DNA of 33,206 bases, taken from NCBI GenBank assembly GCA_003224725.1, contig QHZQ01000068.1, forward strand, positions 1 to 33,206. Direction: 5' to 3'. The notes beneath the pieces are model-generated. The model was not told the DNA's origin. It ran no database searches and saw only the letters and a list, made by a program, of their open reading frames with translations. A program made the translations under genes and the position numbers. The stretch comes from Acidobacteriota bacterium (lineage in GTDB: Bacteria; Acidobacteriota; Terriglobia; Versatilivoradales; Versatilivoraceae). This document shows positions 30,605-32,845 of this stretch, one piece after another (the first letter of the stretch is position 1; every line of letters starts with the position of its first letter).

Positions 30605-31153
30605 ATGAGAAAATTAGCTTGCATAGTCAGTCTGGGCCTGTTGCTTTTCAACCTGGGCAGCCCTGCCCTGGCTCAGAACAAAAATCCCTGGTTACATCTG
30701 GAAGTCCAGGAAAACAATGCCGATCCAACCCTGGTAAAGGTGAATCTTCCCATTTCGATGGTGGATGTGGCACTGAATGTCGTCAAGGACGAAAATCTCA
30801 AAAGTGGCCGGCTGAAACTGGATACCCATGATATCAGCGTTGCCGATATGAAGCAGCTCTGGAGCGAACTTAGGAAAGCGGGTAATGCCGAGTTTGTCAC
30901 CGTGGAAAAGAAGACCGAATCCGTCAGGATTGCTCGGCAGGGGAATTTCTTACTGGTCAAAGTTACTGAATCGAAGACGAAGGGCTCCAAAGTTGACATT
31001 AAAGTTCCCCTGGAGGTGGTGGATGCACTGCTTTCCGGTCCGGGAGAGGAACTGAATATTAAAGCTGCTCTCGCGGCCATGCAGCAAAAAGGAACCGGCG
31101 ACATTCTCGTTGTAAACGACCACCAAACCCAGGTAAGACTCTGGATCGATTGA
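30605..31153 (+). CDS. Secreted protein of unknown function (paralog A)
   Basis: Signal peptide 'MRKLACIVSLGLLLFNLGSPALAQ'; AAGGAGGGAG RBS before ATG 30605. The longer ORF start at 30515 lies inside the repeat element. Confidence 0.8.
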   Translation: MRKLACIVSLGLLLFNLGSPALAQNKNPWLHLEVQENNADPTLVKVNLPISMVDVALNVVKDENLKSGRLKLDTHDISVADMKQLWSELRKAGNAEFVTVEKKTESVRIARQGNFLLVKVTESKTKGSKVDIKVPLEVVDALLSGPGEELNIKAALAAMQQKGTGDILVVNDHQTQVRLWID

Positions 31154-31160
31154 GGCCGCC

Positions 31161-31679
31161 ATGACACTTAAGAATTTCTGCATTGGATTCCTGATAGTTA
31201 CGTTGTTAGTGATCGGTTATGTCGTTGAGGCTGGCATTGCTGTCGTGCACGTCAAAACGCCCGACACCCACATTTGGGTTCCGGTCCCCGTAGCGTTGGG
31301 CCACCTGGCAGGGAAATTCATTGATTTGCCGTTTTCCCAAGAACCTGAATTTGAGAAAGTTCTGGAATATCGGGAAGCGGTCGTCGAAATTTTGCGCCAG
31401 CTCCAAGATCTCCCTGATTCCAACCTGATCGAGGTCAGCAAGACCAAAGAACATGTCCGTATTTTTAAGCGCGGTGATTCCCTCTGTGTTGATGTGGACA
31501 ATGCGAATGAGAAAGTGAAAGTCCGGCTCCCCCTCCACACTGCCGAACGTCTTCTCGAAGCCATGAGTCACCGTCATGTCAATGTGGGAGATCTCGTGGC
31601 CTGCCTGGAATGGCAACCTGCCGGCGATATCGTGCATGTTAAGAATGGGAATGAAGAAGTGCGGGTATCCATCTGGTGA
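31161..31679 (+). CDS. Membrane-anchored or secreted protein of unknown function (paralog B of the upstream gene)
   Basis: N-terminal hydrophobic segment. Shares the plan VKV-[NR]-[VL]P / EHVRIxxxGxxLxVxVxxxxxKVxVxxPLxxxxxLL / GDIxxVxxxxxxVRxxI with the preceding gene, 7 nt upstream. Confidence 0.75.
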   Translation: MTLKNFCIGFLIVTLLVIGYVVEAGIAVVHVKTPDTHIWVPVPVALGHLAGKFIDLPFSQEPEFEKVLEYREAVVEILRQLQDLPDSNLIEVSKTKEHVRIFKRGDSLCVDVDNANEKVKVRLPLHTAERLLEAMSHRHVNVGDLVACLEWQPAGDIVHVKNGNEEVRVSIW

Positions 31680-31948
31680 CTCTTTTCTCTTTCCTGATTA
31701 TCCGAGGTCGGGACATCTTGTTTTTGTAGCAAGATTGTTTCGTCAGGTGGTTCGTCTGTTCCCATTTGAATATCAGGTCCTTCTCTCTCTTGGACTTCCA
31801 CGCCCTGCTTGAGTCCGTTCAACCAATTTCTATCAGATAAAATCCTGGTATGATAAGTTGTGAGGTTTTGATTTCTTCACAAGATTAAGACGTGGAGTTT
31901 CTCATGATTCTCATGATCCTTCCGATCACCACGAGCGATGAAAATTAG

Positions 31949-32041
31949 TCCCCTCCACGGGAGGGGTGGATGGGTGGGTTATCCCGAAAGCGGAAGGACC
32001 CACCCCGAAGGCTACGCCTTCTACCCCTCCCAAAGAGGGGA
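31949..32041. repeat. Intergenic inverted repeat element (TCCCCTC...GAGGGGA)
   Basis: TCCCCTCCACGGGAGGGGT...GGGTGGGTT...GACCCACCCC...ACCCCTCCCAAAGAGGGGA, with central GAAGGC-tac-GCCTTC hairpin (32007-32021). Confidence 0.8.
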
Positions 32042-32058
32042 TTTTCCTGGAGGCAATT

Positions 32059-32538
32059 ATGAAAACACGATGGATGACTTGGGGCCTTCTGCTATTTTTT
32101 CTCTGTTCCATGGCAGGATTTAGCCAGTCAAACACGGAGAAGAAAGAAAGTAAAAAGAGTCCTGCTAAACAAGAAGCAAGTCATAAAGGCTCCGCCAAGC
32201 AAAAAGTAAGTCAGAAAAGTTCCGCCAAACAAGAGGGTATTGGTGAAGGCGCCAAAGACATTGGTAAAGGCGCCAGCCAAGGCGGGAAGGAAATGGGAAA
32301 AGGGGCCGCCGGCTTTGGGAAAAACGTTGGCAAAGGCCATTTAGGCGAAGCAGGCAAGTCCCTGGGAAAAGGCGCTGGTGGATTTGGCAAAGACGTTGGG
32401 AAAGGAACGGGGACAGGAACCAAGAAAATTGGCAAAGGAGTAGCTGGATTAGGCAAGAAGGGTGTGAAGACAGTCACTGGCGGCAAGGGAAAGGAATCGG
32501 AGAACAAAACCCAGAAGGAGACTAAGGTTCAGAAATAG
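32059..32538 (+). CDS. Secreted Lys/Gly-rich repeat protein of unknown function
   Basis: Signal peptide 'MKTRWMTWGLLLFFLCSMAGFSQ', RBS GGAGG before ATG 32059, then three ~10-aa and seven ~11-aa repeats. Confidence 0.75.
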   Translation: MKTRWMTWGLLLFFLCSMAGFSQSNTEKKESKKSPAKQEASHKGSAKQKVSQKSSAKQEGIGEGAKDIGKGASQGGKEMGKGAAGFGKNVGKGHLGEAGKSLGKGAGGFGKDVGKGTGTGTKKIGKGVAGLGKKGVKTVTGGKGKESENKTQKETKVQK

Positions 32539-32623: not shown

Positions 32624-32764
32624 ATGCACATTGATGCTCTTGAAATTGTCGGGGAGATTACCGAGATTGAAACGATTGCTTCTGGCAGTGGCATACGGAT
32701 ACTTTCACTTTTGCCTGGAGTTTGGAGATTTGAATGTGGGAGCCGGCCTCCGGACGGCGACTAG
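32624..32764 (+). pseudogene. Possible gene remnant truncated by the adjacent repeat element
   Basis: 46-aa frame MHIDALEIVGEITEIETIASGSGIRILSLLPGVWRFECGSRPPDGD*. The 'EIETIAxGxxIRxL' start resembles a small hypothetical-protein family (from memory), and the frame runs into the REP-like arm at 32733. Confidence 0.3.
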
Positions 32765-32813
32765 AACCCCCGTTTGATCACTGTGTCGCGGTCCAGAGGT
32801 CCGCTCCCACATT
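32733..32813. repeat. REP-like inverted repeat (AATGTGGGAGC...GCTCCCACATT)
   Basis: AATGTGGGAGCCGGCCTCCGGAC (32733-32755) versus GTCCAGAGGTCCGCTCCCACATT (32791-32813): 23-bp arms with 3 mismatches. Confidence 0.85.
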
Positions 32814-32845
32814 CCCCTGCTTCGTTGATGGATTACCCAAAAACT

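Follow-up and report, generated by a model that had tools for sequence, protein, structure and literature searches.

The gene under study lies close to the end of a 33,206-base contig (C313) from the draft genome of an Acidobacteriota soil bacterium (763 contigs, 89% complete); the whole contig, termed the window, was analysed. The open reading frame spans 32059-32538 on the forward strand, from the ATG at 32059 to a TAG stop that ends at 32538, and a ribosome-binding-site-like GGAGG (32049-32053) was read directly from the sequence ahead of the start. Its 159-residue product is rich in glycine and lysine and is predicted to be exported. Residues 1-22 (MKTRWMTWGLLLFFLCSMAGFS, 32059-32124) resemble a Sec signal peptide and lack a lipobox. 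By eye, the N-termini of the homologues have the same layout, often with AQ at the end, and nearly all family members with intact starts carry such a signal-peptide-like segment. The mature protein has a computed pI of ~10.2 and a net charge of ~+20.

Following the putative signal peptide, a Lys-rich linker of three decapeptide repeats (residues 33-62, 32155-32244), found in this genus only, reads KSPAKQEASH, KGSAKQKVSQ and KSSAKQEGIG in order. The conserved core module of 72 residues (32245-32460) comes next, and a degenerate Lys/Glu-rich tail (32458-32535) closes the protein. In the best phase, comparison of the units places six 11-mers at residues 67-133 (32257-32457). These are unit 1, DIGKGASQGGK (32257-32289); unit 2, EMGKGAAGFGK (32290-32322); unit 3, NVGKGHLGEAGK (32323-32358); unit 4, SLGKGAGGFGK (32359-32391); unit 5, DVGKGTGTGTK (32392-32424); and unit 6, KIGKGVAGLGK (32425-32457). 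The third unit has 12 residues and contains the motif HLGE, which the alignment and the AlphaFold models mark as a conserved helix break, with HP or EP at this site in the relatives (LHP in the Edaphobacter group and GEP in the others).

The flanking DNA contains two dispersed elements. A palindromic element of ~110 bases (31935-32046) lies directly upstream of the gene and recurs elsewhere in the genome ~40 times or more (81-91% identity); folded as DNA, it scores far better than shuffled sequences (z -4.95), it has no Rfam match, and it occupies the equivalent site in the sister species. An inverted-repeat element (32725-32830) lies downstream, with four good further genome copies of 78-86% identity. 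Two adjacent proteins, encoded at 30605-31153 and 31161-31679, possess N-terminal signal-like segments, may be paralogues of each other, and gave no convincing match in Pfam or NCBIfam. When neighbourhoods were compared across genera, no gene but the family itself recurred convincingly beside it; the large neighbour clusters corresponded to antisense or overlapping frames of the family gene, or to closely related genomes.

Repeat architecture and conservation of the family

The initial annotation had placed a repeat protein at 32155-32481, and both its sequence and its coordinates are as described. Lag-11 self-identity reaches 26/67 against 12.4 expected (z 5.0), a value attained by none of 5000 same-composition shuffles, whereas lag-10 identity in the decapeptide linker is 11/20 against 2.9 expected (z 5.5), again equalled by 0/5000 shuffles. 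The lag-23 self-identity of the 11-mer array is likewise high, as expected for an array with one 12-residue unit. The annotated array is thus real, with its count and phase corrected to six clean units followed by the degenerate tail.

In a profile search, 48 of the 299 genomes in the class contained the family, generally as a single copy, with Edaphobacter, Granulicella, Bryocella and Terracidiphilus among the named hosts; the copy in the sister species (G001) is 91% identical to the 159-residue protein. A narrower profile run across the phylum found 19 of 396 genomes at an E-value of 1e-5, five of which are outside the class and weaker, with L077 and L078 being candidate matches only. The core is 72-73 residues long in 31 of the 34 aligned members, contains 23-36% glycine, and follows the pattern [D/K/E/S]-[V/I/L]-[G/A]-K-G-[T/A/V]-[G/A]-[K/G]-G-[G/T/A]-K. 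Among 30 units compared, position 2 is V/I/L/M in 27 and position 4 is lysine in 22, whereas positions 3 (Gly/Ala) and 5 (Gly) are each kept in 28.

Alignment and unit comparison showed that the 11-residue phase is kept in the homologues; the variation in repeat number that the initial annotation anticipated was not seen, the number being fixed. Across genera, unit k compared with unit k gives a mean BLOSUM score of 23.2, against 10.4 for non-matching units between proteins and 12.4 for those within one protein. Synonymous codons between the units of the gene are identical at 24/58 sites, compared with 23.8 expected. As the synonymous codons are at chance level and the units are homologous by position across genera, the unit duplications are ancient, and a recent expansion of the repeats is ruled out. 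The decapeptides behave differently: Pro/Gln/Thr-rich linkers stand in their place in other genera, and a peptidoglycan-binding domain does so in two genomes. The conserved part is the 11-mer core of fixed size; a functional decapeptide repeat is not supported, the decapeptides lying outside the conserved domain as a genus-specific linker.

Comparison with the sister species gives a dN/dS of 0.16 for the whole gene and 0.13 for the repeats; in nine other pairs the core has values of 0.015-0.10 and the linker 0.18-0.49. Purifying selection on the core is strong (dN/dS 0.015-0.13), whereas for residues 140-159 of the tail, which offer few sites, purifying selection is not visible in dN/dS. The low complexity and the many overlapping reading frames at the locus might suggest a spurious frame, an explanation to which we assign a negligible probability: it is ruled out by in-frame dN/dS far below 1, by the homologues, and by the position-aligned units across genera. 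Two outcomes had been named beforehand as counting against the initial annotation, a lack of both homologues and purifying selection or the loss of the 11-residue phase in homologues, and neither was obtained; the gene is real and under selection.

Helical periodicity, domain fusions and paralogues

The hydrophobic moment, calculated on the Fauchere-Pliska scale, peaks at 96-98 degrees in the 159-residue protein, in five relatives and in two LEA-like paralogues, and its value at 98.2 degrees is equalled by only 0-13 of 2000 shuffles. Such a peak is the signature of an amphipathic 3-11 helix, and the periodicity at the 11/3 angle foreseen in the initial annotation is present in every member tested. 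A β repeat was rejected, as there is no 164-degree peak and the β harmonic is flat. The moment of the 159-residue protein is 0.28-0.43 and, for units 1-2 and 4-6, 0.42-0.44, with a mean hydrophobicity near zero; the whole-core moment of the relatives is lower (0.19-0.25) because of a one-residue phase shift. Reported moments of 11-mer lipid binders are 0.257 for Plin4, 0.30 for synuclein and 0.35 for Plin3 (PMC5889406), so that the protein falls in or just above this range (0.257-0.35), calculation details differing between the two sets. On the helical wheel, V/I/L/M at position 2 and T/A/V at position 6 form a ridge that is flanked by glycine on both sides, with K/D/E opposite.

AlphaFold predicted two helices in the 159-residue protein (precursor residues 65-90 and 97-116) with a break at HLGE and a pLDDT of 48.7, and two helices in the Edaphobacter core (3-37 and 41-84) with a break at LHP and a pLDDT of 61.1. 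Both models are of low confidence, and their helix-break-helix course counts as consistent with the reading preferred below. The low confidence is compatible with disorder in water, and, since a glycine content of 23-36% speaks against stable helix formation in water, folding, if any, is probably induced.

Two relatives carry the same module behind a PG_binding_1 domain (PF01471). In L024, from a genome (G006) of the same family as the source organism, the module follows PG_binding_1 (E 6e-14) and is matched by the 159-residue protein alone at E 3.4e-9; in L079, from another class (G514), the module (E 2.8e-7 with a profile devoid of PG_binding_1) lies behind PG_binding_1 at E 1.7e-16. These fusions locate 11-mer modules next to peptidoglycan, within the cell envelope. 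The peptidoglycan link suggested in the initial annotation gains support from them, although the Pfam search found no PG_binding_1 in the 159-residue protein itself. A looser analogue, L085 (G305 C60), is predicted to be exported and combines PG_binding_1 and BON domains with a stretch of LEA-like 11-mers; with this layout, a phospholipid-binding domain could be coupled to peptidoglycan.

Small paralogues, also predicted to be exported, occur in the same genome and in relatives; they include L002 of the same genome (G000 C439), L012 and L021, and have canonical LEA-like 11-mers such as EKSKEVGKATA. The lengths of L012 and L021 differ by exactly 11 residues, that is, one unit. Profile-profile comparison of these paralogues against the 11-mer family gave 96%, a figure that shared composition may inflate.

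Candidate mechanism and comparison with known systems

The reading we prefer, to which we give about an even chance, is that the protein is a periplasmic, largely disordered polycation that forms a weak two-helix amphipathic coat on anionic envelope surfaces. After Sec export, it would reside in the envelope in a mostly disordered state. Upon contact with an anionic surface, either a periplasmic membrane face or lipid A/LPS, the six 11-mers would adopt two 3-11 helices of weak amphipathicity that meet at the conserved break, with the narrow, Gly-flanked ridge of V/I/L/M and T/A/V lying on the surface and K/D/E pointing outwards. Because many weak contacts add up, the envelope might be coated or stabilised, as by the 11-mer regions of LEA-3, synuclein and perilipin, and the variable N-terminal linker, or the peptidoglycan-binding domain in some relatives, would place the module in the periplasm. 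The existence of the gene, the fixed module, the 98-degree periodicity and the peptidoglycan-domain fusions are observed; export, helix formation on contact, the membrane ligand and the protective role we infer. Several findings weigh against this reading: the glycine content disfavours a helix in water and weakens the ridge, pLDDT is low, the neighbours are not conserved, and the clear PG_binding_1 fusions number just two.

A rather unlikely alternative is that the repeats act through their charge alone and need no helix, binding the phosphate of lipid A/LPS, extracellular DNA or acidic exopolysaccharide. The strongly basic mature protein fits this polyanion binding, and a precedent exists in BilRI, an outer-membrane, LEA-like 11-mer protein that binds LPS outside its repeats and whose deletion lowers transformation (PMC8096337). 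However, the net charge of the core is just +3 to +6 in many relatives, and conservation falls on the 11-residue phase and on the V/I/L position; charge alone leaves the fixed unit number and its conserved break unexplained, and no competence gene was seen within the window.

Alternatively, the helices could pack against each other or against further copies through the small residues of positions 10-3-7 and 5-9, which have GxxxG spacing, and so form a self-assembling glycine-zipper or hendecad bundle, either oligomeric or inserted as a hairpin. The near-invariant positions 3 and 5 agree with such packing, as would the two-helix topology of the predicted models; but lysines every 3-4 residues make full membrane insertion unlikely, pTM values of 0.15-0.32 lend no support to a packed hairpin, and the Gly-zipper Pfam models matched none of the family proteins searched, so we hold this bundle to be improbable. 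We are still more doubtful of a soluble LEA/hydrophilin-type shield against desiccation or cold, acting on no specific surface. The LEA-like paralogues speak for it, as do the soil-dwelling hosts, among them Edaphobacter and Granulicella, yet the LEA_4 model does not match, and the fixed length together with core dN/dS values down to 0.015 suggests a specific interaction, not bulk hydrophilicity.

Most known membrane-coating 11-mer helices come from plant and animal cells, and to our knowledge bacterial LEA-like proteins are few and little understood. A conserved 11-mer family of fixed length, predicted to be exported, present in a common soil phylum and sometimes fused to a peptidoglycan-binding domain, would allow such a helix to be studied at work in a bacterial envelope in a clear-cut, testable setting. 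As an extension of the envelope coat, we put forward with considerable reserve that the family might be a periplasmic counterpart of the synuclein and perilipin coats, in which an exported 11-mer module would cover the periplasmic side of the outer membrane (or that of the inner membrane) and would be tied to peptidoglycan through the fused domain in some species.

Searches of Pfam, NCBIfam and PDB chains assigned the 159-residue protein to no family. LEA_4 (PF02987) had no Pfam match in the protein, in 18 family members or in the paralogues; a LEA_4 search of the same genome was also empty, with the control genomes silent as well. No homology to synuclein or perilipin was detected in Pfam families or PDB chains, and weak sub-threshold hits to OATP, RcsF, Senescence, ApoLp-III and Clavanin were set aside as noise arising from composition. 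The LEA/synuclein likeness drawn in the initial annotation thus stands for the 11/3 amphipathic periodicity and falls for membership in a named family, and a literature search found nothing on the 11-mer protein family.

Compared with group 3 LEA proteins, the 159-residue protein has the same kind of tandem Lys-rich 11-mers with amphipathic 3-11 periodicity (lag 11, 98-degree peak) and would share the predicted disorder-to-helix transition, and its paralogues in the phylum look canonical; however, it is far richer in glycine, has a fixed set of six units with a break, and is predicted to be exported. With the giant amphipathic helix of Plin4 and the synuclein 11-mers (PMC5889406) it would share the 3-11 helix, a weak moment, a V/T/A/G ridge, polar-face lysines and many weak contacts, but it is bacterial, predicted to be exported, has six units instead of dozens and more glycine, and shows no sequence homology. 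BilRI of Aggregatibacter (PMC8096337) is the nearest studied bacterial case found: it is also a bacterial envelope protein with 11-mers, predicted to be helical and disordered alone, but its repeats mostly end in KD[A/T] and are not built on GKG as in the lipobox-free 159-residue protein. Altogether, the comparison suggests that this protein works like the repeats of LEA-3, synuclein and perilipin without belonging to any tested family, as a Gly-rich variant previously undescribed as a family that resembles both the drought-protection proteins of plants and the lipid-coat proteins of animals.
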